Shown here: positions 26,691 to 50,871 of the stretch, one piece after another | How the letters are laid out: each line of letters starts with the position of its first letter | How positions within the stretch are numbered: position 1 is the first letter of the stretch | IMG/VR virus record: IMGVR_UViG_3300030099_008235 | Coordinates: 1-64,000 of that record | Direction: 5' to 3' (one strand) | Length of the DNA: 64,000 bases | From: a virus | Translations under genes and position numbers: made by a program | Notes under the pieces: model-generated | Seen by the model: the letters and a program-made list of their open reading frames with translations, nothing else | Told to the model about the DNA's origin: nothing | Databases searched by the model: none

Positions 26691-28058
26691 ATGAGTTCCT
26701 TCGATTTCGCCGATAATTTTAGTGGCTTTAATGATTTATTCCAGAGGGCAGAATTTCTTACAGAAGCTAAGAAATCACCTTATGCTAAATACCACCCATC
26801 TTTTGGTGGTGTCACTAAAGATTTAAGATCTGCAGGATTTAGTTCTGCTCCATTAGATACAATTAACTTTATTAGAACAGCACTATATAACTTAGAGCTC
26901 ATAAGTGACGATGAATTAGCTGCAGCTAAAAAAGGAACCGGGTTTGCTGCAAAAAAGAAAAATCTTTTAGCTCTACTAGATTCTAAAGAAGATGTTATTG
27001 AGCAAAATAAAGATAAAATAGCTAAAGAAATTGCAGATGGTCTTGCCCGTTATATTAATAGAGCAACAACTGATAGAGGTAAAGAAGAAAAATATGCAGC
27101 GCAAAAAGCTGCTTTAGAGTTAGCTAAAGATATTAAAGCAGGTGAAGATATGGGTGATGCTGTTGAAGATGCCGTTGGTCAACTTGATGCTGCAGAATCG
27201 GAATTAGCTGACAGTTTGCAAATGTCAAAAGAAGATCCAACTACATTTATTGAGATTAAAATTAGAGATGCAGAGCGAACTGACGATGTTAGTAAGATAG
27301 TTTCAAAATATGCTAATGAAGATGGGGTAGATATTAGCGGAGATACAGTTCAATTTTCAGTTGATCCAAATACCCCTCTCGCTAGTGCTGTTGCTAGACA
27401 TGGTATTGATAAAATTGAAACAGCTTTAAAAAGAGATGTTGATAGAATTAGTGATAGTGTTGTTATTGTAATGGCTCCAGATGAAGATTATGAAGAAGGT
27501 CCCGCGCCTATAGAACCAGAAGGTCCTGCTAATGAGTATGAAGAAAATATTAATGAAGTAGAAGATGCAGAAGATCTTAGCGCTAAGAAAGCTAGGGCAG
27601 GAAAAGATATCGGTAAACCGGGAAAGAATTTTTCTAAAATAGCTAAAAGCGCTGGTAAAAAGTATGGCTCGAAAGCAGCTGGAGAAAGAGTAGCTGGTGC
27701 TGTATTAGCTAAGATGAGAGGTAATTATGAGGGTGCAGAAGAGTTTGATGACTTTGATATTGGACCACAGTCTGATGAAAATATACCTGATGATTATGAA
27801 GAAGTTTTAGCTGCTTTAATTGATGATGATAAGAAAAAGCACGCAATGAAGCAACTTAACGGTGAAGATGAAGAAGAAGCTATAGTAATGCAACCAATGC
27901 TTGAGTCACATAAGACAGATACATCTGCATACCTTACAGAGCAATCAGCTTCAGACAAACGTAATAAGAAAACGGAGATTAAACCTCAATCCTTTAAGGA
28001 AAAATATAAGCCAAAGACATCTTGGCAGTTAGAAGAGCTTAGACGCTACGGTCTTTAA
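26691..28058 (+). CDS. Capsid core/internal protein candidate
   Basis: 455 residues, strongly acidic with Ala/Lys/Glu-rich helices, like T4 scaffold or internal core proteins. The N-terminus (MSSFDFADNFSGFNDLFQRA) ends in FLTE-AKK, matching the prohead protease rule (hydrophobic-x-Glu before a small residue). Acidic DE-rich stretches alternate with a basic patch (AKSAGKKYGSKAAGERVAGA). A lone late-type plus gene within the early minus block, with a perfect TATAAATA. The exact role is not known. Confidence 0.6.
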   Translation: MSSFDFADNFSGFNDLFQRAEFLTEAKKSPYAKYHPSFGGVTKDLRSAGFSSAPLDTINFIRTALYNLELISDDELAAAKKGTGFAAKKKNLLALLDSKEDVIEQNKDKIAKEIADGLARYINRATTDRGKEEKYAAQKAALELAKDIKAGEDMGDAVEDAVGQLDAAESELADSLQMSKEDPTTFIEIKIRDAERTDDVSKIVSKYANEDGVDISGDTVQFSVDPNTPLASAVARHGIDKIETALKRDVDRISDSVVIVMAPDEDYEEGPAPIEPEGPANEYEENINEVEDAEDLSAKKARAGKDIGKPGKNFSKIAKSAGKKYGSKAAGERVAGAVLAKMRGNYEGAEEFDDFDIGPQSDENIPDDYEEVLAALIDDDKKKHAMKQLNGEDEEEAIVMQPMLESHKTDTSAYLTEQSASDKRNKKTEIKPQSFKEKYKPKTSWQLEELRRYGL

Positions 28059-37309: not shown

Positions 37310-38339
37310 ATAAGCTGAGAGTATATTTTATTATCTCTTTTTTATTTTTGATTTCAAGTAAATTTACAAACTCTTCAATAGCTTGAGGTATATCAATACC
37401 AGAAAGATCTTCTTTATCTTCAGTATCATCAAGCAGTCTATTAAAATTTATATCATAATCTACTGTTAATACTTCAGGTTTAAGTAATGTTAACTTTTTA
37501 ATTAATATATCCATATCAGCTTGAGATATGTTCATATCAACTTTTAATTTTGTAATATTACCTGAAAAGTTGTTTATTACTTCATGAGTAAATTTTTCTT
37601 CTCTTACTAACTCACTAAGAGCTATTTTTTTATATGACGGTGATATTGTATTAGGCGTAAACTCATATTCTAAAGTATCTAGATCTAAAATATAATACCC
37701 TTTATCGTTACCAGCATCACCAAAATCCATTTGAAAAGGATTACCAACGTACAATATTGTGCCTTTACCGAACTTCTTTTCATGTCTAGTATGAAAATGA
37801 CCAGAAATAACTAAAGAACTTTTTTTCAATAAATCTTTAACTTTTAGTCCTTCTTCACAAACCTTATAAGTATTCATTTTGAAAGTTTCTATTTCAAAAT
37901 GGCCAAAAATAATATCACTTTCAGGTATATCTTTTACTTTAGTGTTCCAAGGACAAAAGGTAATAGTACGATCAAAAGCTTCAACAGTATCAAAAGTATC
38001 TAAAATTGTAACATTTTGTCTTTTCTTAAAAATAGATAATGAATTAACATCTGTTCTATGCTTATAGTAAATATCATGATTTCCAGTAATCGCTATAATA
38101 TTAAAATCGCATAATATATCTAATATATCTGCAGATACTTGTAACGTATTAACTGATATCTCACTTCTGTTATGATGCCAATCACCACAAAAGATTATAT
38201 CTTTGATATTTTTCTTTTTACACTCGTCCTTAAACCAATGAGCCCATTCTACAGCATAATTATGCCAGTCTGAACTATTTGTATGAACACCGAGATGCAA
38301 ATCAGAAAAAATAGCAACTCTTGGTTTATTAATCTTCAA
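37290..38339 (-). CDS. 47: Recombination nuclease subunit gp47 (Mre11/SbcD-like)
   Basis: 349 residues (T4: 339). Metallophosphoesterase motifs in order: IFSDLHLGVH, FCGDWHHN, ITGNHDIYY, IFGHFEIE and VISGHFHTRH. A C-terminal capping region binds gp46. It is the endo/exonuclease of the recombination complex. The start overlaps gene 55 by 11 nt. Confidence 0.92.
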   Translation of the reverse strand: MKINKPRVAIFSDLHLGVHTNSSDWHNYAVEWAHWFKDECKKKNIKDIIFCGDWHHNRSEISVNTLQVSADILDILCDFNIIAITGNHDIYYKHRTDVNSLSIFKKRQNVTILDTFDTVEAFDRTITFCPWNTKVKDIPESDIIFGHFEIETFKMNTYKVCEEGLKVKDLLKKSSLVISGHFHTRHEKKFGKGTILYVGNPFQMDFGDAGNDKGYYILDLDTLEYEFTPNTISPSYKKIALSELVREEKFTHEVINNFSGNITKLKVDMNISQADMDILIKKLTLLKPEVLTVDYDINFNRLLDDTEDKEDLSGIDIPQAIEEFVNLLEIKNKKEIIKYTLSLYEKSKL

Positions 38340-38766
38340 AGGAATTTTCTTCGTCAGGGGGTTTCACATAAACATGTCCATGTGTATTTTCTGGATTTGA
38401 CATATAATCTTCATATACACGCTCTCTATATTTTGTAACAGCTTCGTGATGCTTTTTCTCTTTTTTAATTCTATTTATAAACGCATGATATGCAATAGTT
38501 GTAAAATATGAAAACGGATTAGTAGCTTTTTCAAAGTTAAATTTTTTATGCTTTAACGCTGAGTACATTTTTATTAATGCATCACCAATCATATCGTCTT
38601 TGTACGTATAATTAATAAATGATGCATTATAACTTAATCCGTAGGCTATTTTTTTAATATTTTCAGCTAAATCATCTGTAAGAATATCAGTATCATAGTA
38701 TTTTTGTAATGATTCCTTAAAGACTTTAGGTTCTATATAATACGGTTTTTTCTCTTTCGCGGCCAT
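38329..38766 (-). CDS. 55: Late-transcription sigma factor (gp55)
   Basis: 145 residues, shorter than T4 gp55 (185). It has the sigma region 2-like core YKDDMIGDALIKMYSALKHKKFNFEKATNPFSYFTT (split here as a description: DDMIGDALIKMYSALK then NPFSYFTTIAYHAFINRIKK). It directs host RNA polymerase to TATAAATA late promoters, which are abundant in this window. A Shine-Dalgarno (AAAGGAA) is visible just before the ATG. The order 46-47-55 is as in T4. Confidence 0.85.
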   Translation of the reverse strand: MAAKEKKPYYIEPKVFKESLQKYYDTDILTDDLAENIKKIAYGLSYNASFINYTYKDDMIGDALIKMYSALKHKKFNFEKATNPFSYFTTIAYHAFINRIKKEKKHHEAVTKYRERVYEDYMSNPENTHGHVYVKPPDEENSFED

Positions 38767-38792
38767 TTCCTTTTAATTATATTAACATATTA

Positions 38793-40214
38793 CTATTTTT
38801 CAACAATATTAGTTTCACTATACTTTATCTTTTCGGTATTATAGATTTCTTTGCGCTTTTCACAATGTCTTATACCATATCTTAATCTATCGCAAAGATC
38901 AAATATTATTAACTTAGATTTAAGATTATGTTTTCTTAATCCACGACCAATTGACTGAACAGTACGTATAAATGACTTACCTCCTGAAGCAAAAATAATA
39001 TTATGTAAATTTTTAATGTTAATACCTGTAGAAAAAATAGCACTTATTGCAATACATACAACATTTGTATCTTTTTCCATTATTTTTTTAATTTTATCTC
39101 GTTCTTCTACATCTACCTCACCTCTAATAAAATAAACTTGCTTGTCTGCTATATTATCTAGATATTCTTTTAGTAATTCTCCATGTTTAATATGATTAAC
39201 TAATATTAGCGTATTATTATTCAATTTATTACAAAGTTTTGCTAAAAAATCATTTCGAAAATTACTTTCATAGATAAAATCTAACTCTTCTCTATAATAA
39301 TTGTCACTATTATATGTCGGTGATATACGATAATCTAAGTTTAATATTTTAACATTTACATTAGCGAGATAATCTTCTATTCTTAGCTCATAGCTCGTCT
39401 TTTCATATATGACAGGGCCTAATTTACCTATAATTGACCATTTATCTAAATTATTTTCAGGCAGGGTACCTGTAAATCCATATTTGTTAGGAGTTCTTAT
39501 TCTAGATACAATTTTACTAATCTTATTAGATGATTTTATCTTATGACACTCATCAACTATAAGTAAATCAATATGTTTTAACCAGTCATTTTGTTCAAAT
39601 CGACTTTGAACAATACCAATATTACAAATAATAACATTTGCAGTTAAGTCCGGTTTAATCTTACCAGTCCATTTAGTTATTTTAAAAGTAGTACCACAGT
39701 TTAAAAACTCATCGTACGTTTGAGTTACAAGTCCTAAGTCAGGAACCAATACTACACACTTAAATGTATCTTTATCCTTACTATCTCTAAAGTAATTTTC
39801 AATTAAAGCTGCTGTTGTAAAGGTTTTTCCCGCACCAGTACCTAAAACACAAGTACCAGTACCAAGTTTGAGAGCTTTTTTAACAACTTCTTCCTGATAT
39901 TCTCTTAAATTAAACGCAAAGTCTTTATAAAGCTCTATATCTTTACCAACTTTTAATACTTTTTGTAGTTTATCTGTAGTTTCTGTATCTTTCTTAGTTA
40001 AAAACTTTTTAATTTCCCAATATAGACCAACTTCACACGCACCAGCTGGAGTTATAGCATATTTTCTTTGAGGTATATACCGACCATAACGCCTACCAAA
40101 GCGCGCCGCATCATTAATAATACTAAAATGCTTTCTTATATCATTAAAAAGATCTAAATCTTCTGTTTTTAATAGAAGCTTACGAGTTGATGGATTGTAA
40201 TCAAAAGTTACCAT
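38793..40214 (-). CDS. uvsW: UvsW-type DNA/RNA helicase
   Basis: 473 residues (T4: 503). SF2 motifs: VLGTGAGKTFTTAALIE (Walker A), VVLVPDLGLVTQ (Ia), LLIVDECHK (DEAH-like box), YGFTGTLPEN (III) and VQSIGRGLRKH (VI). It branch-migrates recombination intermediates and unwinds R-loops at origins, switching replication to the recombination mode. The start directly abuts the UvsY-like gene by 1-nt overlap. Confidence 0.9.
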   Translation of the reverse strand: MVTFDYNPSTRKLLLKTEDLDLFNDIRKHFSIINDAARFGRRYGRYIPQRKYAITPAGACEVGLYWEIKKFLTKKDTETTDKLQKVLKVGKDIELYKDFAFNLREYQEEVVKKALKLGTGTCVLGTGAGKTFTTAALIENYFRDSKDKDTFKCVVLVPDLGLVTQTYDEFLNCGTTFKITKWTGKIKPDLTANVIICNIGIVQSRFEQNDWLKHIDLLIVDECHKIKSSNKISKIVSRIRTPNKYGFTGTLPENNLDKWSIIGKLGPVIYEKTSYELRIEDYLANVNVKILNLDYRISPTYNSDNYYREELDFIYESNFRNDFLAKLCNKLNNNTLILVNHIKHGELLKEYLDNIADKQVYFIRGEVDVEERDKIKKIMEKDTNVVCIAISAIFSTGINIKNLHNIIFASGGKSFIRTVQSIGRGLRKHNLKSKLIIFDLCDRLRYGIRHCEKRKEIYNTEKIKYSETNIVEK

Positions 40215-40609
40215 TAGTATTGCTCCATTTTATTCATATCAATAACATTTTTAATCTCCCAATGCATATTACTGAGTATTTTTTCTACTTTCTCAAGGTA
40301 TTCTATAATAGTATCTTGCTCTTTTATGTTATTATTAAGTTTAACAACAGATTCGTACTTTTCAGCAGCAGATTCTGCAGAAGTTTGATTAATACGTACA
40401 GGAGAATCAGCAATTACCTTCTTAACTAAGTCTTTTTTAAGCTTACTCTTTTGAGCAATCAGTTTATTGCGTAGAATTTTTGCTTCTATAAGTCTACCAA
40501 CCCAAAAATGCTTACGAGCTGGAAGTCTTTGTTGCTGTTGTTTAAGATTAAGATCATTTAGTACAAGATCTTCACCAATTTCTTGCATATACTTTTTTAG
40601 CAATTCCAC
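40214..40609 (-). CDS. uvsY: UvsY-like recombination mediator
   Basis: 131 residues (T4 UvsY: 137), probable GTG start. Largely helical and basic, with a middle segment HFWVGRLIEAKILRNKLIAQ and a C-terminal IKNVIDMNKMEQY that resembles the end of T4 UvsY (IK-x2-x-DM pattern). Adjacency to uvsW is as in T4. UvsY loads UvsX onto gp32-coated DNA. The call rests on weak sequence similarity plus synteny. Confidence 0.6.
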   Translation of the reverse strand: MELLKKYMQEIGEDLVLNDLNLKQQQQRLPARKHFWVGRLIEAKILRNKLIAQKSKLKKDLVKKVIADSPVRINQTSAESAAEKYESVVKLNNNIKEQDTIIEYLEKVEKILSNMHWEIKNVIDMNKMEQY

Positions 40610-40617
40610 ACAATTAT

Positions 40618-40625
40618 TATAAATA
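40618..40625 (+). promoter_or_regulatory. Late-promoter-like box TATAAATA
   Basis: Perfect TATAAATA 8 nt before the ATG at 40634, at the head of the plus-strand internal-protein cassette, in the 24-nt gap to the divergent uvsY gene. Confidence 0.65.
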
Positions 40626-40633
40626 TAAGTATA

Positions 40634-41023
40634 ATGGAATCAAGTGGCAAATTTGAACGTATCTTTTTAAAAATGTTAAAAGAAGAGATGACTGCTGGTG
40701 CTGGAGGGGCGCTTGGTGGTGGTTCTTCGTATAACCCGCCGGGTGATATAAGTTCTGGTGATACATACGCTCCAGGCGACGCTAGATTACCTAAGGCTCT
40801 TGGAGCTGTCCAAACGCGTAAAGGTACAGTAAATAAAAAGAAGAAAAAGAAAGCAAAAGAAGAAAACGAAGAAAATTTTCCAGAAGAAGATGCAGAAAAG
40901 AAGAAGAAAGCTGATAGGTGTAAGCGTAGAGCTGATTCTGTTTATGGTAAGAAAACTTCTGCTTACAAATCCGGGGCTATTGTAAGGTGTAGACAAGGAA
41001 AAATTTGGAAAAAGAAAAAATGA
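40634..41023 (+). CDS. Lys-rich internal-type head protein candidate
   Basis: 129 residues. The N-terminus MESSGKFERIFLKMLKEE resembles a capsid-targeting helix. A Gly/Pro-rich linker follows, then a KKKKKKAK run, an EEDAE motif, and a basic Cys-containing C-terminus (DRCKRRADSVYGKKTSAYKS, RCRQGKIWKKKK). The pI must be very high, as expected for a DNA-associated internal protein. The stop overlaps the next start (ATGA). Confidence 0.6.
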   Translation: MESSGKFERIFLKMLKEEMTAGAGGALGGGSSYNPPGDISSGDTYAPGDARLPKALGAVQTRKGTVNKKKKKKAKEENEENFPEEDAEKKKKADRCKRRADSVYGKKTSAYKSGAIVRCRQGKIWKKKK

Positions 41024-41775
41024 CCCAGAAAGAGATATTAGAAGCTAGCGACTCACTACGTCAATGGTTTAAACGTGGTGGTACTGATCCTAAAACTGGT
41101 AAAAAGTTTAAAGGGTGGGTAAATTGTAAGACTGGTGGTCCTTGTGGTCGTAAATCAAAAAAGTCTGGTGGTAGTTACCCGGCTTGTCGACCAACTAAAG
41201 CGGCTTGTAAAAGTATTAAGGGTAAAATGTATAAAAAGAAGGGTCCAAAGCGTGTTAATTGGAAGAAGAAAAAAACTAAAAGCGAGAATGCTGAAGAACC
41301 TAAAAAGGGTACCGGTAAAAAACCTAAAGGTTCAAGCAGAAGGTTGTATACTGATGAAAATCCAAAAGATACAGTAAGCGTAAAATATAGTACTGTGGGT
41401 GATATACGTGAAACGTTAAATAAAGCTTCATTTAAAAGTAAATCGCATGCCAGACAGTCGCAAATTATTAATTTAATTCATCAAAGAGTAAGAGCTGCTC
41501 GTGGTAGAGTAAAAGATCCTAAAAAGAAAAAAAGTTTAGCTGCCGCTTACAAATATATTACTAATAAAAAAGAAGCTAGTAAGCGTAAAACAAAACGAAT
41601 GCGTGAAGAAGATGCAGAAAAGAAAAATGTTCATAAACCTGTTAAGCCAGGTATACTTAAAAAGCGATTAGGTAATCTGTCTTGTAGTAAAGTAAGAGGT
41701 GCTAAAAGTAAGCTTAAGAATAAAGGTACTCATTATGCTAAAGCATTACAACGCTATTTAAATTATCATTGTTAA
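41020..41775 (+). CDS. Basic Cys-rich protein (DUF5872-like), internal-protein candidate
   Basis: 251 residues from the ATG at 41020. MTQKEILE-ASD fits a prohead protease site after Glu8. Residues ~10-85 carry the Gly/Cys/Lys motif FKGWVNCKTGGPCGRKSKK, YPACRPTKAACKS, KKKGPKRVNWKKKK, which I associate with DUF5872. The remainder is Lys/Arg-rich helices with a second EEDAE motif and a closing C-x22-C region. Likely packaged and DNA-binding (inference). Confidence 0.6.
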   Translation: MTQKEILEASDSLRQWFKRGGTDPKTGKKFKGWVNCKTGGPCGRKSKKSGGSYPACRPTKAACKSIKGKMYKKKGPKRVNWKKKKTKSENAEEPKKGTGKKPKGSSRRLYTDENPKDTVSVKYSTVGDIRETLNKASFKSKSHARQSQIINLIHQRVRAARGRVKDPKKKKSLAAAYKYITNKKEASKRKTKRMREEDAEKKNVHKPVKPGILKKRLGNLSCSKVRGAKSKLKNKGTHYAKALQRYLNYHC

Positions 41776-41782
41776 ATAAATA
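41775..41782 (+). promoter_or_regulatory. Late-promoter-like box AATAAATA
   Basis: AATAAATA 5 nt before the ATG at 41788, directly at the stop codon of the preceding gene. Confidence 0.5.
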
Positions 41783-41787
41783 TTAAT

Positions 41788-42258
41788 ATGAAGTCATTTA
41801 AATATTATTTTTTTGAAGCTAAAGAAGCTCCTAAAGGAAAACATTATGATTCAGCTGGTAGATTAAGATCTGGTGACGCTGATGCTGATGGTAGAGGAGG
41901 ACCTAAGTATAGGTCTGATCCTACGTATAAAAATCCTAATGAAAATAATGAAGATGATCTTGAAGATGAAGAAGCACCTGAAGAGGATGCAGAATATAGA
42001 GGAAGGAAAGTAAAACTTAACAAACCCATGAGAGGGGACGTTAAGAAGTTTAAAGTGTACGTTAAGGATCCTAAAACTGGTAATGTAAAGAAAGTAAATT
42101 TTGGTCATGGGGGTACTTCTGCTAAAAGAAAAGGTGAGAAGACTATGAAAATTCGTAAAAATAATCCAAAAGCTCGTAAATCGTTTAGAGCTAGACATAA
42201 TTGTGATAACCCCGGGCCAAAGACTAAAGCCAGGTATTGGTCTTGTAGAAAGTGGTAG
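41788..42258 (+). CDS. Capsid-targeted basic protein with conserved Cys C-terminus
   Basis: 156 residues. The N-terminus MKSFKYYFFE-AKEAPKG fits the targeting-plus-cleavage pattern. Then come an acidic linker with EEDAE and a basic domain: KKFKVYVKDPKTGNVKKVNF and the C-terminal RARHNCDNPGPKTKARYWSC. The latter block recurs in T4-like marine phage proteins of unknown function (from memory). Likely an internal or head-associated protein. Confidence 0.6.
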   Translation: MKSFKYYFFEAKEAPKGKHYDSAGRLRSGDADADGRGGPKYRSDPTYKNPNENNEDDLEDEEAPEEDAEYRGRKVKLNKPMRGDVKKFKVYVKDPKTGNVKKVNFGHGGTSAKRKGEKTMKIRKNNPKARKSFRARHNCDNPGPKTKARYWSCRKW

Positions 42259-42650
42259 ATTTAGGTCATTGGGAGGGGATTCTAGAAGAAAGTACGGATC
42301 TACCTTACGGTTTCATTTATAAGATAACAAATCTTACTAATGATAAAAAGTATATTGGTAAAAAGCAGTGCCAGTCAATAAGAAAACGTCCCCCCTTAAA
42401 GGGTAAAAAGAATAAACGTCATGAAAAAATAGAAACTGACTGGAAGACCTATACTTCTTCATCAAATGAACTTAACCAACATATAGAAACACTTGGAAAG
42501 AATAATTTTAAGTTTGAAATCCTTAGGTGGTGTGATTCAAAGTGGGAGTTGAGTTATCATGAAACTAGATTACAATTTGAAAAAGAAGTATTACTAAGAG
42601 ATGACTACTACAACGGAATTATTAACGTCAGAATTGGAAGGCGTAAATGA
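42252..42650 (+). CDS. GIY-YIG family nuclease
   Basis: 132 residues with probable GTG start overlapping the previous stop. The catalytic N-terminal strands are FIYKITNLTNDKKYIGKKQC (GIY variant IYK and YIG). A downstream Arg/Lys helix and ETLGKNNFKFEIL, with Glu residues suited to the metal site, follow. It is similar to SegE-like phage GIY-YIG proteins. It could be a homing or repair-type endonuclease; no intron is visible around it. Confidence 0.7.
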   Translation: MVDLGHWEGILEESTDLPYGFIYKITNLTNDKKYIGKKQCQSIRKRPPLKGKKNKRHEKIETDWKTYTSSSNELNQHIETLGKNNFKFEILRWCDSKWELSYHETRLQFEKEVLLRDDYYNGIINVRIGRRK

Positions 42651-43095
42651 TACGGTACGTGGTTTTGAGTTTATTAATCTTAATAAATGCTTAGCTAGAT
42701 CTTTTAATGAATATCTATTGTATATAACTGAAAACGAGCTTAAATTAACAAGAAAAGATAAAAACAAGCTTGGTATTCATTTTATTATTAAAGAAATAAT
42801 TAAAGTTTGTAAGAATACTAATAGTAAAAAATGGTTTTATTATAAAACAAACGGTAAATCAATAGAACATACACTTGTTAAACGTATTTTTAACGCTATA
42901 CCCACAAATATTACGTATAGTAAAGATAGCTTTGAAATATTTTTAGAAGAAAGAGACTACATGTCTTTCCAAAAAAAAGATACTTCAACTATTTCATTTT
43001 ATAAATTTAGATTATTTCTTCGAAGGTATGAGTTGCAGCAAATAGAAAAGGAGTTTCTAACTAATATAAATATAAAACTCTCGTTGCTTCCATAA
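42601..43095 (+). CDS. Hypothetical protein
   Basis: 164 residues, start overlapping the GIY-YIG gene by 50 nt in another frame. Lys-rich, helical, with aromatic patches (KKWFYYKTNGKSIEHTLVKR) that suggest nucleic-acid contact. No family recognised. The long overlap and the absence of a Shine-Dalgarno leave the exact start uncertain. Confidence 0.5.
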   Translation: MTTTTELLTSELEGVNDTVRGFEFINLNKCLARSFNEYLLYITENELKLTRKDKNKLGIHFIIKEIIKVCKNTNSKKWFYYKTNGKSIEHTLVKRIFNAIPTNITYSKDSFEIFLEERDYMSFQKKDTSTISFYKFRLFLRRYELQQIEKEFLTNINIKLSLLP

Positions 43096-43098
43096 ATA
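43091..43098 (+). promoter_or_regulatory. Late-promoter-like box CATAAATA
   Basis: CATAAATA 5 nt before the ATG at 43104; its TAA is the stop codon of the preceding gene. Confidence 0.55.
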
Positions 43099-43103
43099 TA
43101 TAC

Positions 43104-43517
43104 ATGAATAAGTTTCTTAAACTTGTAGAAGAGAATCGACCAGGTCAAGACAAGTATACTATTGAGTTAAGAGATTCAAACGGCAAAGTTGTTGATTCTT
43201 TTGATATGTTTGGTGTAAGCAGTCCTTTCGATATCTTTGATAGCTTTAAACGCGAGTATGCTCCAGATGGTTCAGTAGAAGATCAAGAAGTTGCTATGGG
43301 TAGTAATAAACCATATGATGTTGAAAAAGAGGTTAATAAGTTAGCAAATCAAGCTAAAGGTGGTGTAATGGGTAAGATTGCAGGGGCTATGGGAACAGCA
43401 CCACAAGAAGCTAAAAAAGCAGTAAAAATGAGAGCAGACCTTGCAAAAAAAGCTGTAGATCTATATAACCAACAAACAGGTAAGTTATCTAATGCTATAG
43501 ATGCCGCGAAAGGATAA
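43104..43517 (+). CDS. Capsid-targeted-type small protein, unknown
   Basis: 137 residues. The N-terminus MNKFLKLVE-ENRPGQ fits the targeting/cleavage pattern. A short beta domain (YTIELRDSNGKVVDSFDMFG) and an Ala/Lys-rich helical C-terminus follow. Member of the internal-protein cassette. Function unknown. Confidence 0.55.
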   Translation: MNKFLKLVEENRPGQDKYTIELRDSNGKVVDSFDMFGVSSPFDIFDSFKREYAPDGSVEDQEVAMGSNKPYDVEKEVNKLANQAKGGVMGKIAGAMGTAPQEAKKAVKMRADLAKKAVDLYNQQTGKLSNAIDAAKG

Positions 43518-43522
43518 AAATC

Positions 43523-43861
43523 ATGAAAAAAACAATACAATTATTTGAAAAATATAAAAAGCTCTATTCTGAACAAGAAGAAATAGATGTTAATGTTGAT
43601 GTTGAAGCAGATGCTACTGATGTAGAAGATATTCCTCCAGAGCCAACTGGTATTTCACCAGAAGGGGAAGTATTTATTGCAGATTTACTAACTAATGCCT
43701 TTATATATGCTCCAAAAATGCAGGATATTAATATTGCTGCACAGGTAAACAAACAATTTGGTAGAACGCAGCCTAGAAAAGTTATTGAAACAATTGAAAG
43801 ATTAATCGAATTTTCAAACGAAGAGGTTGAACAAGAACTTGAAGACTTAGACGCACAATAA
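43523..43861 (+). CDS. Capsid-targeted-type small acidic protein, unknown
   Basis: 112 residues. The N-terminus MKKTIQLFEKYKKLYSE-QEE resembles the targeting helix. An acidic Asp/Val repeat follows (DVNVDVEADATDVED), similar in style to the protein at 17077, then a helical domain. An AGGA lies 8 nt upstream of the start as Shine-Dalgarno. Function unknown. Confidence 0.55.
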   Translation: MKKTIQLFEKYKKLYSEQEEIDVNVDVEADATDVEDIPPEPTGISPEGEVFIADLLTNAFIYAPKMQDINIAAQVNKQFGRTQPRKVIETIERLIEFSNEEVEQELEDLDAQ

Positions 43862-43862
43862 C

Positions 43863-44957
43863 ATGCAGTGGTCATTAGAAGATATCTATAAAAAGCAGGT
43901 ACGTGGTAATATTCCACCACGCAGACACCTTCGTGTGCTAGGTGAAGAGGTAGATCTTTATACTAAGCAAAATGATGAATATTCATATGTTGGTCAAGTT
44001 TCAGATGAAAATTTTGATAAGATAAGTCGTATCGCAACAGGAGGAGATGCGTTAGCGTCAATTACCAAGTATTTAGAAGGTAAAAAATATACAAGAAACT
44101 CTTTTAAGAACGAATACGACTATGATAGTTTAGTTGATATGTTAGATAGAGGTGAATTTGAGAAATATATTAGCAGTGAAGAAAAACCGTCACTATCGAT
44201 TAATGAAACGGGAAATGTTGTACAGTTAGTTACAAGTAAAGGGTTTAACGAAAAAACAGCAATGAGAACTTCTGCTTTTACTCCTATTGATGAAGGTGGT
44301 AGCAATGTTGGACCTTGCGAAATACTTCTCGCTTTAGCATTCAGCAACGTAACTAATTCAACCGAAGGGGGTGATTTAATGATAGATGGTGAAAAACTTG
44401 AAGTTAAAGGCCAAGGCGGTAGATTTGGTCAACAAGGCGGAAGAGGAGGACCAGCCTTATCTCCATCAACCCTTCTAAAAGGGTTAGAAGCAGATAATGT
44501 TAAGGTAGTTGAAAGTGTTGAATCAAATATTATTGGTGCGTATCGTGCTTTCGAGCAAATTGGAAAAATAGATCTATTTTTATCAAACTTACATGATTTA
44601 CTTAAAATAGCATATCCGGGAGGTGATGTTGCAAAGTTTTTTACCAATGATATTAATTATATAGATCCAACATCAAGAAAAAGAGGGGCGCCACAAAGTC
44701 AAATTAGAAAACAATTAGCAAAGCTTAATCTACAGCAATATTCTACAAAGTATGATCTACAAAACATAATATTTGCAAAAGGACCACAACAAAAAAAGCC
44801 TACACCGGGTCGTTTAGGTGATTTTGCTTCATTTACGGTTAATGACGCTATTAAGGAGGGTGGTTTAATTGATAGAGGTATTTTACGTGCAAATTCTTTT
44901 ACAATGGCCGGTCTCTATCCAAACTTTTTCTATATGTTTTCCAATGAATCTAAATAA
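43863..44957 (+). CDS. PD-(D/E)XK-like nuclease candidate
   Basis: 364 residues, start 2 nt after the previous stop. The central block (~150-200) reads GPCEILLALAF, then GGDLMIDGEKLEVKGQGGRFGQ: Glu153, Asp171 and Glu180-x-Lys182 fit the E...D...ExK core of restriction-like nucleases. The flanks are helical. No targeting-like N-terminus is visible, although all neighbours have one. It could be a packaged or packaging-linked nuclease. The fold call is by motif only. Confidence 0.5.
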   Translation: MQWSLEDIYKKQVRGNIPPRRHLRVLGEEVDLYTKQNDEYSYVGQVSDENFDKISRIATGGDALASITKYLEGKKYTRNSFKNEYDYDSLVDMLDRGEFEKYISSEEKPSLSINETGNVVQLVTSKGFNEKTAMRTSAFTPIDEGGSNVGPCEILLALAFSNVTNSTEGGDLMIDGEKLEVKGQGGRFGQQGGRGGPALSPSTLLKGLEADNVKVVESVESNIIGAYRAFEQIGKIDLFLSNLHDLLKIAYPGGDVAKFFTNDINYIDPTSRKRGAPQSQIRKQLAKLNLQQYSTKYDLQNIIFAKGPQQKKPTPGRLGDFASFTVNDAIKEGGLIDRGILRANSFTMAGLYPNFFYMFSNESK

Positions 44958-44960
44958 ACT

Positions 44961-46172
44961 ATGAAGACTTTTAAGCTATATTTTGAACAATACGAGCTTC
45001 TAAATGAAGCTAAAGCTAATACACACCTTACACATTTAGAGGAGCTTATTCTTACTAAAGGAGAGGGTGGATATAAGACTGCAAGGGGATTTATAACCGA
45101 TTTGCTTTCACATTTACAGGGTAAGAGTAAAAGAAAAGTAAATACATCAGTCAAATGGGATGGTGCACCTGCTATTTTTGCTGGTAAGCATCCAGAAACT
45201 GGTAAATTCTTTGTAGGTACTAAATCTATATTCAATAGAGAGCCTAAAATTAATTATACAGATAATGACGTTGAGATGAATCATGGTCATGCTCCTGGTT
45301 TAGCCGATAAATTAAAGAAAGCTCTTAAGTATCTTCCTAAGCTGGGTATTAAAGGTATACTTCAAGGTGATTTTATGTTTGATTCATCATCTGTTAACAG
45401 AGAGATTATTGATGGTGTGGAGCATTTTACATTTAAACCCAACACAATTAAGTATGCAGTTGAAAAAGATTCTAAATTGGGTAGAGAAATAGCTAATTCG
45501 GTATTTGGTATAGTATTTCATACAGGATATGCTGATTTAGATAGCTCCCCACAATATGGTATTAATGTAAAAGGACTTAAAAAAGTTCCAGGAGTGTGGG
45601 TTGATGATGCTATATTTACTGATTCAACTGGAACAGTTACTCTTACTACTGATGAGGCTAAGCAGGTGAGAGATTATGTAAAGACAGCAGATTCTATTAA
45701 AGTAGATTATCGAGATCTACCTCTAGACTTACTAAACATTTATGCTAACTCTGAAATTCAAAAAGGTCAGTTTTTAGAAGATCCTGAAGTTTCATTTAAT
45801 AACTTTGTTGATTGGTTCAAAGGTAGAATGACTAAAGAAATAGAAAAGAGAAAGTCTAAAGCCGGTAAACTTAAGGTAGAAGAAAGCTTTAAAAAGAAAA
45901 TGGCTGAATTTAATCAACAAAAAGATGATATAGTAAATATCTTTAAAGTAAGTAAGCTACTTTCTCAAGCCAAACAGATCTTTATTAACAAGTATAATAA
46001 TGCTGTATATAATACTAAGCATTTCTTAGATGCAGAAGACGGTACGTTAAAGGTAACATCTCCGGAGGGTTATGTAAGCGTATCTAAAGCTGGTGATGCA
46101 GTTAAGTTAGTAGATAGATTAGAATTTAGCCGTGCTAATTTTAGTGGAGGTCAAACAAGTACAAAAAAATGA
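44961..46172 (+). CDS. Capsid-targeted ligase-like nucleotidyltransferase candidate
   Basis: 403 residues. The N-terminus MKTFKLYFEQYELLNE-AKA has a targeting helix and a good cleavage site after Glu16. Residues 65-68 are KWDG, matching ligase/capping-enzyme motif I (KxDG) with Lys65 as possible adenylated residue. GKFFVGTKSIFN, ILQGDFMFD and FGIVFHTGY could be motifs III, IIIa and IV. I recall relatives as DUF6267. A polynucleotide ligase or other covalent nucleotidyl transfer is plausible but unproven. Confidence 0.5.
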   Translation: MKTFKLYFEQYELLNEAKANTHLTHLEELILTKGEGGYKTARGFITDLLSHLQGKSKRKVNTSVKWDGAPAIFAGKHPETGKFFVGTKSIFNREPKINYTDNDVEMNHGHAPGLADKLKKALKYLPKLGIKGILQGDFMFDSSSVNREIIDGVEHFTFKPNTIKYAVEKDSKLGREIANSVFGIVFHTGYADLDSSPQYGINVKGLKKVPGVWVDDAIFTDSTGTVTLTTDEAKQVRDYVKTADSIKVDYRDLPLDLLNIYANSEIQKGQFLEDPEVSFNNFVDWFKGRMTKEIEKRKSKAGKLKVEESFKKKMAEFNQQKDDIVNIFKVSKLLSQAKQIFINKYNNAVYNTKHFLDAEDGTLKVTSPEGYVSVSKAGDAVKLVDRLEFSRANFSGGQTSTKK

Positions 46173-46672
46173 AAACATTTAGAGAATATTTTGAAGAAAA
46201 CAAAGCGATAGATTCCTTAAGAGGATGGGAGCATGATGATGCTAGAGATTACGCAATAAAACTTATAAAGAAATTCGGTGAACCAGATGAAGTAACTGAA
46301 AATATGTTACTTTGGAATAATATTGAACCGCCTTTTGAATCAGTTTATATAAAAGATGAAAGTATACCTCATGAGTTTCCTTCCTCCCATAGAGATTATG
46401 TTTATTCTACTATGAATATTGATGTACCTGCTGAAATGTTAGATACATTAGGATATGTTACTGGTAGTATTATATACGACGGTCTTAAAAAAGAAGTTAC
46501 TGCAAGATGTGGTGACTTATATGCTAATGCAGCTACATTAGGTTTTGTAAAAGATATGGTTGATGGTAAGGTTACTACAGATTTTGAAGAGGCAAAAAAA
46601 GAATATGCTAATAGAATACAAAAGGCACCTTTACCTGATTGGTATCCTAACAGTATGGAAGAAGGAGATTAA
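46169..46672 (+). CDS. Capsid-targeted protein, unknown
   Basis: 167 residues. The N-terminus MKTFREYFE-ENKAIDS is almost identical to that of the next gene, also at DNA level. The rest is a mixed alpha/beta domain rich in acidic and aromatic residues. The start overlaps the previous gene by ATGA. Function unknown. Confidence 0.6.
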   Translation: MKTFREYFEENKAIDSLRGWEHDDARDYAIKLIKKFGEPDEVTENMLLWNNIEPPFESVYIKDESIPHEFPSSHRDYVYSTMNIDVPAEMLDTLGYVTGSIIYDGLKKEVTARCGDLYANAATLGFVKDMVDGKVTTDFEEAKKEYANRIQKAPLPDWYPNSMEEGD

Positions 46673-46674
46673 AA

Positions 46675-47214
46675 ATGAGAACCTTTAGAGAATATTTTGA
46701 AGATATGGAGACAAGAGTTGAGCGAATCGCTCTTCTCCCCGGTGGTTTTAAGCCACCTACAAAGGGTCACTTTAATGCTTTAAGATATTTGCTTGATGAT
46801 GCAGATAAAGGTATTGTTTTTATTGGTGGGAAGGCACGTGAAGGCATTACACCTGAGCAATCAGAAAAGATATGGAACATATATGCGAAATATTTTGATA
46901 AGCCTGTAAAGGTTGTGTATGTACCGAATCCGGTAAGGGCAGTTTATGACTTTGCTGATGAAAATTTAGACACGACGTTGCTTGTTGGTGCTGGTGAAAA
47001 GGATGAAGATGTTAAACGTTACAAATATTTTATAGATAATGTGGAAAAATATCCATATGTTAATGTAGTTAAAATACCAATGCAAGAAGGTGGTATATCT
47101 GGTAGTCAAACAAGAGAAATGATACAAAAAAATATAGATGAGTCGTTGGATTATTTTGTACCAGATGAAATATCTATTGAAGATAGAGATCAAATAAAAG
47201 CAATATTAGTATAA
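46675..47214 (+). CDS. Capsid-targeted cytidylyltransferase-like (NMNAT-type) protein
   Basis: 179 residues. The targeting-like MRTFREYFE-DMETRV is followed by a nucleotidyltransferase domain: LLPGGFKPPTKGHFNALRYL, where TKGH (29-32) stands for HxGH, and ISGSQTR (141-147) for the ISSTxxR signature. The fold activates NMN, pantetheine phosphate or similar substrates by nucleotidyl transfer. A GGAG Shine-Dalgarno is present. A virion-carried cofactor enzyme is an inference from the N-terminus. Confidence 0.65.
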   Translation: MRTFREYFEDMETRVERIALLPGGFKPPTKGHFNALRYLLDDADKGIVFIGGKAREGITPEQSEKIWNIYAKYFDKPVKVVYVPNPVRAVYDFADENLDTTLLVGAGEKDEDVKRYKYFIDNVEKYPYVNVVKIPMQEGGISGSQTREMIQKNIDESLDYFVPDEISIEDRDQIKAILV

Positions 47215-47217
47215 ATA
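47210..47217 (+). promoter_or_regulatory. Late-promoter-like box TATAAATA
   Basis: Perfect TATAAATA 5 nt before the ATG at 47223, with its TAA being the stop codon of the preceding gene. Confidence 0.6.
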
Positions 47218-47222
47218 ATATT

Positions 47223-47639
47223 ATGAGAGATAAGAAACGTAAAGAAAGAGCTATGCTTCAGGAAGCATATCAAAAGGTTAACGAAATGTTAGGACCGCAT
47301 AATAACCCTTATCCTCAAAAAATGGCAGTAGCTGTTCCTGTACCATCAGAAGATGAAAGCTGTGGAGAGTATGATCAATCTGAAATTGATATGGCAGGTA
47401 GGGATCTTCTTAAAGCGCAAGAATATGCTACAAAATTAAGTATGATGGTGCCAAAGTTACCTGGTTTGGATGGATGGGTAGCTTCAAAAATTACAAAAGC
47501 TGCAGATTATCTCTCATCTGTATTTCATTATCTTGATTATGAAATGCAACAACATGATGAAGTTGTAGTGGATGTTGAAGAAATACAAGCACCAGTAGAA
47601 GTTTTTAATGTAGGGTATGAGGATACAGAAAATACTTGA
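47223..47639 (+). CDS. Internal-protein candidate, unknown
   Basis: 138 residues. A basic N-terminus with AMLQE-AYQ (cleavage-like after Glu14) precedes a helical region and an acidic Val-rich C-terminus. No enzymatic motif. It belongs to the same cassette. Confidence 0.55.
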   Translation: MRDKKRKERAMLQEAYQKVNEMLGPHNNPYPQKMAVAVPVPSEDESCGEYDQSEIDMAGRDLLKAQEYATKLSMMVPKLPGLDGWVASKITKAADYLSSVFHYLDYEMQQHDEVVVDVEEIQAPVEVFNVGYEDTENT

Positions 47640-47662
47640 CCACACCGTTAATAGCAGTTGCT

Positions 47663-48112
47663 ATGAAGAAGTTTAAACATTTTTTTATTGAAAAACAAGT
47701 TCTTGGACTTATAGAGTTCTTTGACGTAGATGGTGTTGGTAAAATACCATCTAAACTTGATTCAGGTAACGGTGCTTTTAACGTTATTCATGGAGAGGAT
47801 ATACAAATACAAGGTAATAAAGTTCTCTTTAAAACAGTTAACAATAAACATCTTATAAAAGATAAAGTAGATGATATTTCTATTAATGTCGGAGCTGGTA
47901 ATATAGAAGAAAGACCTGTTGTTAACTTTGATCTGAAAATTGGTAATAAAGAGTTTAAAGATATACCTTTTTCTGTAGGTAATAGAACTAGTAACTTATT
48001 TAAAATATTAGTAAGTAAAGACTTTATAGAAAAAGAGCTTGATGCTCTTATTGATGTTAGTCGAGAAAATATTGCTGATAAAGAGCTTGATGCTACTTTT
48101 AATACCAAGTAG
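47663..48112 (+). CDS. Capsid-targeted retropepsin-like protein candidate
   Basis: 149 residues from the ATG at 47663; the N-terminus MKKFKHFFIE-KQV fits the targeting pattern and decides the start. The body resembles the small retropepsin-like fold of RimK-associated proteases: KIPSKLDSGNGAFNVIHG (DSG at 33-35, for DTG), RPVVNFDLKIGNKEFKDIPF, and a closing hydrophobic VSKDFIEKELDALIDV. It overlaps the convergent gene by 14 nt. Activity is unproven. Confidence 0.5.
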   Translation: MKKFKHFFIEKQVLGLIEFFDVDGVGKIPSKLDSGNGAFNVIHGEDIQIQGNKVLFKTVNNKHLIKDKVDDISINVGAGNIEERPVVNFDLKIGNKEFKDIPFSVGNRTSNLFKILVSKDFIEKELDALIDVSRENIADKELDATFNTK

Positions 48113-48629
48113 GCTTCCAACGTAACGTCCAAGTAGCAAAATCTTTATCGTGACGAATATACTCTCTGTATTTGTCAATAGTAGATAAATTATCAAAATC
48201 TTCTATTTTTCTGCAATCACAATCTTCGCCAATAGCTACTGCGTAATTAGTTAAGCCAGTTTTACTCATAATAGTATTATGAATATTTTGACCACACCAC
48301 TCAATAAATGTCTTAGTAAAATGTTCTTTTGATTCGGGCCACCTATACATACGTTCATTAAACATTTCTAAGGTATGATCAACTAACCATTTAAAGTTAT
48401 CTTTAGTTTCTCTTGCCCATATAGAACATTGATGATTAAAATAACCTTTACCTCTCCTACGAGGTTTACCGGTAGAAGTTCTTGGAGTAGATTTATGATC
48501 TAATACTTCTTGAGGAAACGCATGCGCTAGCATAATAGCTCCTTCAATTTGCATTTTTGATCTTACATGTTGATCACAGAGGTTATAAGTAGAAATTACA
48601 GGATCGTCGTCAGTTACAAATATATTCAT
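48099..48629 (-). CDS. Conserved phage protein, unknown
   Basis: 176 residues (MNIFVTDDDPVISTYNLCDQ). Motifs HVRSKMQIEGAIMLAHAF, NHQCSIWARETKDNFKWLVDH and MFNERMYRW recur in a widespread phage family that I know only as uncharacterised. It has several conserved His, Trp and Arg, so enzymatic activity is conceivable. C-terminal RWKPTWY recalls endonuclease V in a superficial way only. Confidence 0.6.
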   Translation of the reverse strand: MNIFVTDDDPVISTYNLCDQHVRSKMQIEGAIMLAHAFPQEVLDHKSTPRTSTGKPRRRGKGYFNHQCSIWARETKDNFKWLVDHTLEMFNERMYRWPESKEHFTKTFIEWCGQNIHNTIMSKTGLTNYAVAIGEDCDCRKIEDFDNLSTIDKYREYIRHDKDFATWTLRWKPTWY

Positions 48630-48631
48630 AA

Positions 48632-48718
48632 TTAAAACTCAGTAAAGGATATAGTAGCTAATAGAATACCAAATATTCCAAATACAAATCCCCACCATAA
48701 AATATCAGCTATAGGCAT
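48632..48718 (-). CDS. Very small single-helix membrane peptide
   Basis: 28 residues: polar ends around a hydrophobic helix (ILWWGFVFGIFGILLATI). It exactly fills the gap between folE (13 nt upstream) and the following gene (2 nt downstream) on the same strand. This fits a real small membrane protein rather than a chance ORF, though with no homology support. Confidence 0.5.
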   Translation of the reverse strand: MPIADILWWGFVFGIFGILLATISFTEF

Positions 48719-48731
48719 TTTTAAATTATGT

Positions 48732-49382
48732 TTAAGTTCCTTTCATATTAGAAACAAATTGATAAAATTCATTCCTAGTAGCAATTTCATCTAAAAAGTC
48801 GCTACTTAATCTTGCAGTTTTCATCTCACAACCATCATGTTTAACTCCTCTTAAGCAAGCACAAGTATGTGTAGCAGAAATCATTACTGCAACTCCTTTA
48901 TTACCCTCACAAATCTCATTAATAGCATCATGAATTTGCATAGTTAAACCTTCTTGAATTTGAGGTCTTCTAGCAAAATGTTCTACAATACGATTAAGTT
49001 TACTTAATCCAATAACTTTACCACTTTTAGAAGGAATATAAGCTACATGAGCTCTACCAGAGAAAGGTAAGTGATGATGAGAGCATAATGACTTAACAGG
49101 TATACCTCCTTGAAATACCATTCCATCATAGCCATCAGAAGGAAATGCAGTTACATTAGGTAACTCATCATAACAACCTGCTGCTAAATCTCTTACAAAT
49201 GACTTAGCTACTCTATTAGGAGTATTGTCACTATTAGGATCACTACGCCAGTCGATGCGTAAGGCATCTAAAAATTTTTCATACGCTTTAGCAGCGTCCT
49301 CCATAACTTCGAGTTTTTCTTCTTCAGTTAAGGGCATATTTCCGTTAGCAGTAGGTAATTTAGTAATTTTAGTACGATCCAT
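48732..49382 (-). CDS. folE: GTP cyclohydrolase I (FolE)
   Basis: 216 residues. The zinc and catalytic motifs are CSHHHLPFSGRAHVAYIPS and TCACLRGVKHDGCEMKT. It makes dihydroneopterin triphosphate from GTP, the first step toward preQ0 and folate. Together with QueD, QueE and QueC in this window it completes the preQ0 pathway. Near-complete length for the family. Confidence 0.92.
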   Translation of the reverse strand: MDRTKITKLPTANGNMPLTEEEKLEVMEDAAKAYEKFLDALRIDWRSDPNSDNTPNRVAKSFVRDLAAGCYDELPNVTAFPSDGYDGMVFQGGIPVKSLCSHHHLPFSGRAHVAYIPSKSGKVIGLSKLNRIVEHFARRPQIQEGLTMQIHDAINEICEGNKGVAVMISATHTCACLRGVKHDGCEMKTARLSSDFLDEIATRNEFYQFVSNMKGT

Positions 49383-49417
49383 ATATCTTATTATAGATAT
49401 AAATAATTTATTTCAAG

Positions 49418-49425
49418 ACTAAATA
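49418..49425 (+). promoter_or_regulatory. Late-promoter-like box ACTAAATA
   Basis: ACTAAATA 6 nt before the ATG at 49432. Confidence 0.45.
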
Positions 49426-49431
49426 TTGTAT

Positions 49432-50784
49432 ATGGCTAGAATATCCCAAAAAGAGCTACTTGAAGAAGGGTTTTCAGATAAAATACGTGGTATAGCAAAA
49501 GCCACAGCAGCAGGTATTAAGCAAGCTGCACAGCAAGGAATAAATTTAGATACTGGTCAATTAGCTAAAGGAATGTATAAGTCTTATAAAGGTGAGCAAC
49601 CAATTGCATTTCTTAAAAAAGCTCTAGAAAATGATAAGGATATTGAAATAGTTAAAATTGATAAGAGCAATATTAAAAAACAACAGGCAAGTGGTAAAAA
49701 AGGTTATTTAAGTCGAATTGTTGGTCCAAAGACAATAACCTTAATTCCATTTGAAGGTGTTTTATATAATAGAAAAGAGAGACGTTATGAAGGGCCTGGA
49801 GCAGGTACATCACCACCACCTGACGCTGTAAATGAAAAAACAGCATATATGGGTGATTCAAGAGATAAAAAAGGTAAGTATAAGCCTGTTAGTGAAAAAG
49901 GATCTGTAAAAAAACAACTAAAAGGAGCATTAACTAAGATAGGTATAGATGATCAATCAGCAAAAGAGTTTGCTTTATATTTAAGTAAAAACTTGAAACC
50001 GTTTCTTGCAAGGGTACAAGAAACAAGAGCTGGACGTGGTTATGATTTTACATATGACCCTGATGCAGTACTTGGTGTAGTTAAGCAAACAAAAGCAAAT
50101 ATTCCTAAATCTAAAGGTAAGAAAAAAAAATTAATTATACCAGAGCATTTTTCTATAAGAGATACAATTAAATTTTCCAAAAATGTTTTAATTTTAGAGC
50201 AACCAGACGATGATTTTTCAGAATATACAAAAATGGGCCCAGTAAAATTTATTGAAAATTTATCTGATGAGCAAATGGAATCTTTGTTAAAAAATATTCA
50301 AAAGATACAGCCTGGATTAAACGTACAATTTAAATTAAAGGCATCACAAAAATATATTGATAGAAAAGAGCGAGAAGAAAAAGGACCTAAATCAGACTTT
50401 GAAAGTGAAACGGGAATGTTTGTAGCAGAAATATTTAGAACAAAGGATGGGTTGCAACTAGGTGATATATTTAGACGTGAAGATCCGACAGATATAATAA
50501 GAGGTATGCAACAAAGTAAAAAGAAAGAGGAGGTTAAACTGTCCCCGTTTGATAAAGCAGTACAAATCTTAAATACAAAAAATAATCTTACAGCTGCTAC
50601 ATTAGCTCCAGCTCTTAATATAAAAGACGTTAATATTATAACAGATATTACTAATAAAGATGTAGGAGCGATGCTATCTGATAAAGATATAGTAAAAATT
50701 AAAGGTGAGTTAATAAAGAAAAAAATTATTAAAGAACACTGTTCGCAAAAAAATATGCTATTGCAGTTGACTTTACTTTCTTAA
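49432..50784 (+). CDS. Capsid-targeted-type protein with possible -1 frameshift extension
   Basis: 450 residues in the zero frame. The ATG at 49432 (MARISQKELLEE-GFSDK, a cleavage-like site) is preferred over an upstream TTG. Lys-rich helical N- and C-terminal regions flank a central domain with beta strands (GPKTITLIPFEGVLYNRKER). At the 3' end a seven-A run contains A-AAA-AAT (50748-50754). A shift of -1 there continues for 27 protein-like residues (YAIAVDFTFLIDNYPRPEEG...) to a stop at 50837. Either programmed shifting or a lost base. Function unknown. Confidence 0.6.
   Translation: MARISQKELLEEGFSDKIRGIAKATAAGIKQAAQQGINLDTGQLAKGMYKSYKGEQPIAFLKKALENDKDIEIVKIDKSNIKKQQASGKKGYLSRIVGPKTITLIPFEGVLYNRKERRYEGPGAGTSPPPDAVNEKTAYMGDSRDKKGKYKPVSEKGSVKKQLKGALTKIGIDDQSAKEFALYLSKNLKPFLARVQETRAGRGYDFTYDPDAVLGVVKQTKANIPKSKGKKKKLIIPEHFSIRDTIKFSKNVLILEQPDDDFSEYTKMGPVKFIENLSDEQMESLLKNIQKIQPGLNVQFKLKASQKYIDRKEREEKGPKSDFESETGMFVAEIFRTKDGLQLGDIFRREDPTDIIRGMQQSKKKEEVKLSPFDKAVQILNTKNNLTAATLAPALNIKDVNIITDITNKDVGAMLSDKDIVKIKGELIKKKIIKEHCSQKNMLLQLTLLS
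50748..50754 (+). promoter_or_regulatory. Candidate -1 ribosomal frameshift heptamer A AAA AAT
   Basis: Zero-frame codons AAA AAT preceded by A fit the X XXY YYZ rule. Slipping back one base moves into the downstream open frame ending at 50837. Confidence 0.4.
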
Positions 50785-50871
50785 TAGATAATTATCCGAG
50801 ACCAGAGGAGGGAGAGCCTTTTAAATTTGATCATTAGTTGATTTATTTTTAAAATTGCTTATAATAATATT

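Follow-up and report, generated by a model that had tools for sequence, protein, structure and literature searches.

A probable cassette of tagged internal head proteins, including a gp61.1-type mimic of gp23, in an uncultured marine T4-like virus

Why should a run of neighbouring genes with bodies of quite different kinds begin with much the same short N-terminus? The question is raised by positions 40634–50784 of a 64,000-nucleotide stretch (the window), which is positions 1–64000 of the 96,646-base IMG/VR virus record IMGVR_UViG_3300030099_008235; the remaining stretch of the record was read too. The source is an uncultured marine T4-like virus. The block contains 14 plus-strand genes, referred to here by their first coordinate. 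A basic/aromatic tag is found at the start of seven of these (41788, 43104, 43523, 44961, 46169, 46675 and 47663), and five others (40634, 41020, 43863, 47223 and 49432) bear short N-termini of another kind that end in hydrophobic-x-Glu. A first-pass annotation had reported at least ten basic/aromatic N-termini and read them as T4-like capsid-targeting sequences (CTS). The starts that it quoted all exist as starts of open reading frames (ORFs); the number is seven, the count of ten having lumped the two kinds. The block is probably a cassette of internal head proteins, expressed late, that includes a gp61.1-type mimic of the virus's own gp23, and we hold this explanation as a whole with good confidence.

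The tags match the T4 CTS in sequence and in register. The N-terminus of the T4 internal protein (IP) IPI is MKTFKEFTSTTTPVSTITEA, and its start MKTFKEF stands beside MKTFKLY, MKTFREY and MRTFREY in the block. Mutants of T4 IPIII have mapped targeting to residues 4 and 7 and processing to residues 8 and 10 (PMC9026906). Aspartate at position 10 of IPIII blocks processing and leaves targeting intact. A strict tag pattern derived from the window fits 6 of the 14 block genes and 0 of 81 others (P=3.5e-6), and a looser pattern fits 6 of 14 and 2 of 81 (P=8e-5). Because the strict pattern was devised after the data had been seen, a register derived from T4 is the better test. The a priori IPIII register, M..[FYL]..[FYL][LIVFM].E, is present in 4 of 14 block genes against 1 of 80 others (P=0.0015), the outside match being UvsY. 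When position 10 may be E, D or Q and position 4 must be F or Y (aromatic 4, hydrophobic 7 and 8), the allowed residue classes being our choice, the register is present in 6 of 14 against 0 of 80 (P=3.7e-6).

The partners that such tags would need are encoded in the same genome as the block. Outside the window, the contig carries a prohead protease of gp21 type (74527–75192; PF03420, E=1.8e-32), gp23 (76295–77860; PF07068, E=1e-85), a T4-type portal (PF07230) and a scaffold-like gene. The N-terminus of this gp23, ..ENQEKWCIEE/ANTAGHGG (a slash marks the cleavage site, here and below), has an I-x-E/A site where T4 gp23 gets cut. The protease was identified from reading the contig and then with Pfam; phrog_34, tried as the protease family, was wrong. 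Together with the tag match, the presence of protease and cleavable gp23 supports the capsid-targeting reading, and in the kind of system the first-pass annotation was correct. The site (L/I)-x-E that it had named for T4 gp21 is present in the DUF6267 protein 44961 (LLNE, LLTE or LINE in the family, with E16 invariant), in 40634, in 41020 and in 43863. At the P3 position of the cleavage site, 43104, 41788 and 47663 have V or F, and 46169 and 46675 an aromatic residue.

Comparison with relatives indicates that the tags are exchangeable modules on unrelated or fast-changing bodies. For this, 80 relatives of the DUF6267 gene were taken from IMG/VR and their proteins clustered on bodies minus the first 20 residues. 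The same tag is found on unrelated bodies among these clusters. In 43 gene families with at least four members each, the loose tag is present in at least half of the members in 8 families and never in 30, and positions 4, 7 and 8 remain hydrophobic or aromatic across families. Alignment of homologous N-termini, the check that the first pass had proposed, found the tag residues kept: Phe4 and Glu16 of DUF6267 are invariant in 23 of 23 relatives, the intervening residues vary, and the site is LLNE, LLTE, LINE, LLEE or LIEE. The DUF6267 proteins of Melnitz and of the window's clade are tagged, and since the same body starts without a tag in P-HM2, S-PM2 and S-CREM2 (NTHLxHLED or similar), the tag is an add-on before a conserved body start. 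In the 43863 family, the 28-residue N-terminus ending HLRVLGE is 82–93% identical in pairs with bodies only 15–18% identical, and one member (L042) presents the converse case, with a body 80% identical and a tag 43% identical. Gene 43863 and its relatives, at the same locus, have one conserved tag and bodies 15–25% identical, a pattern of constant head and variable nuclease.

Tagged proteins of this type are found in the virions of two related cyanophages. The virion protein list of S-CREM2 (OR473000) has been published (PMC10665884), and the T4 register fits 5 of its 50 virion-detected ORFs against 1 of 157 others (P=0.0034). Five of the six strict-register proteins therefore belong to the published virion proteome: a SAM hydrolase (gp6, MKDFDSFLEE), a kinase (gp14, VKRFDAFLTEE), a cytidylyltransferase (gp154, MKNFSSFLTEA), gp13 and gp136. 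A Cas9-like virion protein (gp12) has ..LRFASFMAEAA slightly further in from its N-terminus. The NMNAT of S-SCSM1 is likewise a virion protein and starts MKSFLQFLKEA. The CTS-like tags on these virion-found enzymes therefore offer a reason for their presence in the head. The authors of PMC10665884 proposed such proteins to be capsid-carried; its available text mentions no targeting tag, and a literature search combining capsid targeting sequence and cyanophage returned nothing beyond a review. An injected anti-restriction role for the S-CREM2 SAM hydrolase is plausible.

The first gene of the block (40634–41023, plus strand) encodes a putative gp61.1-like internal protein of 129 residues, with the tag MESSGKFERIFLKMLKEE ending in ..FLKMLKEE/M. 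From the cleavage site onward it copies the virus's own gp23 (KEEMTAGAGGALGGGSSYNPPGDISSGDTYAPGDARLPKAL against EEANTAGHGGSFGSGDSTTNIFNPPGTVGSADNYAPGDARLPKVL in gp23). The copied segment (40679–40801, plus strand) begins at the predicted gp21 site, ends with DARLPKVL and is followed by a Lys-rich tail, NKKKKKKAKEE.... The mimic scores 123–131 against its own gp23; in a search of 36001–50800, 40634 scored 131 against 34 for the next ORF. When a 45-residue segment was slid along gp23 and compared with the contig's predicted proteins, a clear match was found only at gp23 residues ~46–120. Mimics bearing the sequence of their own gp23 are also found in P-HM2 (TNVGPINTQTTGKGAIMGFDPIL), S-CREM2 (gp160, GFTGAAAPEGPVAGYDPLM) and S-SCSM1 (ORF97, GFTGSSAAEGPTAGYDPLM), the latter two being listed among the virion proteins. 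Mimic and capsid protein are coupled within each phage, in that the observed sum of self-scores (the matrix trace) was reached by 0 of 100,000 partner permutations with ten phages and by 0 of 200,000 with eleven. This signal stems from comparisons between groups, because within the closely related Straboviridae and within the window's clade the arms are too alike for self and cross scores to be told apart. Only 35–58% of the residues identical between mimic and gp23 share a codon, synonymous codons being randomised. The likeness therefore seems to be kept by selection on the protein, and we reject recent gene conversion between the two.

A counterpart is present in T4 itself: searched with its own gp23 arm, the phage yielded gp61.1 (E=3.2e-4). 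This protein of 54 residues, MKTFKEFIKE/DMVAGDSGGNPENISIGTTSGAVVNKGPEQIPKKKKEESKEKEE, is encoded beside the gene 61 primase; its tag is of IPI type, with I8-x-E10 in the IPIII register. Right after the cut it copies gp23* residues, and it has a Lys tail. The counterpart segment of T4 gp23 is the capsid N-fist (residues 66–91), which is disordered in five portal-facing subunits. In gp61.1 of RB49, a KVP40-type phage, Aeromonas PX29, Acinetobacter Maestro, Serratia WSPA and Klebsiella PTP25, too, a basic tail comes after the segment, and some gp61.1 records are annotated 'major capsid protein'. The mimic recurs across Straboviridae and Kyanoviridae, from T4 to cyanophages. No function for gp61.1 was found in the open literature searched, the available text of which lists it as hypothetical only. 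T4 gp61.1 and 40634 share the CTS-like N-terminus, the segment resembling the gp23 N-fist and the Lys-rich tail; 40634 differs in its length, its tag (KFERIFLKMLKEE), an extra Cys/Lys-rich C-terminal region and its place beside UvsY, not gene 61.

Some further features of these proteins were observed. In the KVP40-like, Aeromonas, Acinetobacter, Serratia and Klebsiella phages (L213–L217), gp61.1 is longer and has the N-fist copy at its C-terminus; its N-terminal domain is similar to a gene that stands by itself in HTVC008M (L164:21482-22087) and in Melnitz (L165:20712-21323). The C-terminal part of 40634 has KADRC..A...Y...SAY(K/R)SGAIVRCR(Q/K)G, which is found in a protein of Flavobacterium phage immuto (L238:6899-7369) that also has CGR..YPACRPT, a motif of window gene 41020–41775.

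Under the proposed mechanism, the cassette genes would be expressed late, and the short N-terminal CTS would dock each protein in the prohead core. The gp21-type protease would then cut after the Glu, and the mature cargo would stay in the head with the DNA and probably be ejected into the host. Cutting of 40634 would expose an N-terminus copying the N-terminal segment of its own gp23* (in T4, the N-fist); because of this copy, 40634 would use the same gp23 sites as the authentic N-fist. Its basic tail would be tied to the inner wall or the portal vertex and would reach the DNA. A broader proposal, which we make tentatively and at somewhat less than even chances, is that a gp61.1-type internal protein is general among T4-like phages and that, after the gp21 cut, it mimics the N-fist of the phage's own major capsid protein and bears a basic tail. 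Such a protein would fill N-fist pockets that are empty or disordered at special positions (the portal vertex, the gp24 vertices), tying them to DNA or gating expansion.

The copy could instead be a decayed duplicate of the 5' end of gp23, or a second gp21 substrate or decoy, with no capsid binding. This is rather unlikely, even though the likeness begins at the cleavage site, making protease recognition possible, and annotation pipelines label some of these proteins 'major capsid protein'. The match runs 25–40 residues beyond the site and spans the N-fist, nearly all mimics have the basic segment or tail, the design recurs in Straboviridae and Kyanoviridae, and synonymous sites are randomised. 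It is improbable that the tags address another assembly, such as the baseplate, the neck or a membrane-bound portal initiation complex, instead of the prohead core. Short amphipathic helices do bind many partners and T4 head assembly begins on the membrane (PMC9026906), but the exact T4 CTS register with its Glu site, the gp21 protease in the contig and the cargo-type enzymes in relatives' virions argue for the prohead. Recombination at gene starts, or common ancestry, might also account for the shared N-termini, which would then be functionless at the protein level; the genes are adjacent and some tags near identical (46169 and 46675). This reading is very improbable given that DUF6267 keeps Glu16 and Phe4 while the neighbouring residues vary, that tags persist on bodies 15–18% identical, and that the hydrophobic or aromatic character of positions 4, 7 and 8 holds across families.

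Several observations weigh against the internal-protein cassette and its capsid mimic. Two of the 14 block genes, 42252 and 42601, have neither tag nor site. The two 'FREYFE' proteins, 46169 and 46675, are without the strict (L/I)xE, and 46675 has D at position 10. DUF6267 is untagged in several cyanophages (P-HM2, S-PM2 and S-CREM2 gp87), and gp87 is absent from the virion list. The virion evidence comes from the relatives S-CREM2 and S-SCSM1; PMC10665884 itself warns that virion lists may include contaminants, and the available text on these two virions mentions no cleavage of the tagged proteins. No mimic is detectable in S-PM2, and HTVC008M and Melnitz show a weak likeness, at 36 and 41 points against shuffled maxima of 41 and 33. 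Gene 40634 adjoins UvsY/UvsW and not a primase as in T4; the primase-like gene of the window is at 17493–18551 and has a zinc-finger-like sequence with no Pfam match.

The putative cargo consists of a retropepsin-like protein, a HIGH-type nucleotidyltransferase, the DUF6267 protein, a PD-(D/E)XK-like protein and Lys-rich proteins, the enzyme activities being predicted from sequence. The first pass had noted a mix of lysine-rich, acidic and enzyme-like bodies; 41020 is Lys-rich and 43523 acidic. Gene 47663 (47663–48112; tag MKKFKHFFIE/K), whose true ATG lies inside the 47636 TTG ORF, appears to encode a retropepsin-like protein of the RimB/Zn_protease (PF05618) kind. All 24 family members match PF05618 (best 6.9e-7), the window protein itself at 23.3 bits, under the cut-off of 27, and the family profile matches PDB 9g58 (E=1.5e-6), with the catalytic-type D33-S34-G35 invariant.

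Gene 46675 (46675–47214; tag MRTFREYFED) is predicted to be a HIGH-type nucleotidyltransferase. Its GGFKPPTKGH belongs to a motif, GG.KPPTKGH (G-x-K-P-P-T-x-G-H), that is invariant in 23 relatives; it matches a cytidyltransferase PHROG weakly (E=8e-4), and its fused homologues match PF01467 (6.8e-10). An NMNAT-like query against isolates matched in Flavobacterium phages only. Some ORFs contain both DUF6267 and a HIGH-type nucleotidyltransferase, fused in either order, the nucleotidyltransferase being first in four fusions (L077, L079, L081 and L082) and DUF6267 first in L072, L074 and S-PM2 (L167:11947-13722), which suggests that their functions are linked. The DUF6267 protein (44961–46172; PF19782, 2.9e-96) has the N-terminus MKTFKLYFEQYELLNEA and the tag MKTFKLYFEQYELLNE/A. 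Relatives among isolates are mostly from cyanophages, with pelagiphage HTVC008M and Methylophilales phages in addition. The invariant residues K65, D67-G68, E369-G370, V372 and K382 give the order KxDG..EG[YF]V..K, which recalls nucleic-acid ligases; fold and profile searches gave no match with a poor model (pTM 0.52), and a PDB profile search gave coiled-coil and spidroin noise only.

The PD-(D/E)XK-like protein 43863 (43863–44957) has the 28-residue tag MQWSLEDIYKKQVRGNIPPRRHLRVLGE, ending ..HLRVLGEE. E153, D171, E180 and K182 are invariant in 26 sequences, giving the E..D..ExK signature of PD-(D/E)XK. Its model (pLDDT 82) has no PDB match below E=1, with DXO/Rai1/Dom3Z at E 5–9 only, and a search of isolates with the body found none. 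Among the remaining genes, 41020 (41020–41775) is the Lys-rich protein, with the N-terminus MTQKEILEA/S retained in homologues as LLEA, ILEA or LNEA. Gene 41788 (41788–42258) starts MKSFKYYFFE/A, and its C-terminal part is phrog_7595, of unassigned function. The untagged genes are 42252 (42252–42650), a SegE-type GIY-YIG protein (PF19835, 3.4e-33), and the uncharacterised 42601 (42601–43095). Gene 43104 (43104–43517) starts MNKFLKLVEE/N, [LI][VI]EEN being conserved in the family, and the acidic protein 43523 (43523–43861; MKKTIQLFEKYKKLYSE) starts MKKTIQLFE. Gene 46169 (46169–46672) starts MKTFREYFEE/N before an uncharacterised body, 47223 (47223–47639) has an N-terminus with ..AMLQE/A (LIAEA or LLNEM in relatives), and 49432 (49432–50784) has MARISQKELLEE/G (..KELLEEG). 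A megablast search of phage records with the block gave zero matches.

Upstream of 5 of the 14 block genes there is a late-promoter-like motif, TATAAATA or CTAAATA, compared with 4 of 56 other genes (P=0.013). TATAAATA is located just upstream of 40634, upstream of 43104 and 47223 and, together with CTAAATA, upstream of 49432. Over the window as a whole TATAAATA shows no enrichment (12 copies against 21.6 expected), and only its position before cargo starts is suggestive. Two of the four other genes, 17077 and 26691, are stray tagged genes and candidates for further head proteins. Both are isolated plus-strand genes amid minus-strand genes, with tag-like N-termini: 17077–17511 (MTKFERRFLKSLLEQ) adjoins the primase-like gene and has CTAAATA upstream, and 26691–28058 (..QRAEFLTEAKKS) has TATAAATA upstream. 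Elsewhere on the contig, 79310–96563 is occupied by two huge minus-strand ORFs of 2345 and 3397 residues with short repeats such as NTTGCNNVAIG, which are probably fibres.

The closest known system is that of T4 IPI, IPII, IPIII and Alt, which have an N-terminal propeptide of about 10–20 residues, aromatic residues at 4 and 7, a hydrophobic-x-Glu site, a gp21-type protease and diverse bodies, as here (PMC9026906, PMC3012670). The block differs in that its bodies are not homologous to these as far as searched, a dozen candidates are located in one block, some sites have an aromatic P3 or D10, and the DUF6267 and PD-(D/E)XK families use longer tags. The NMNAT-like virion proteins S-SCSM1 ORF91 and S-CREM2 gp154 resemble 46675 in having a HIGH-type nucleotidyltransferase and a CTS, and in several phages such proteins neighbour DUF6267 or are fused with it; 46675 is a short stand-alone copy with its weak PHROG match. 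The ejection proteins of SPN3US and phiKZ are internal, protease-processed and injected (PMC5694885), as the block's proteins would be. The same reportedly applies to P1 Dar (PMC12810830). SPN3US and phiKZ differ from the block in longer propeptides and in A-x-E or S/A-x-E sites. We know of no N-fist mimic in systems of the SPN3US, phiKZ or P1 Dar type.

The system is a new and richer variant of the known T4 internal-protein system, and the link between gp61.1 and the N-fist is its most surprising part. The few internal proteins of T4 thereby become one case of a cargo system, addressed by tags, that is general among marine T4-like viruses, with the cargo named, and gp61.1 of T4, the best-studied phage, gains a concrete and testable role. 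A short peptide that tracks the phage's own capsid protein would open a new way into head maturation and cargo anchoring in T4-like phages.

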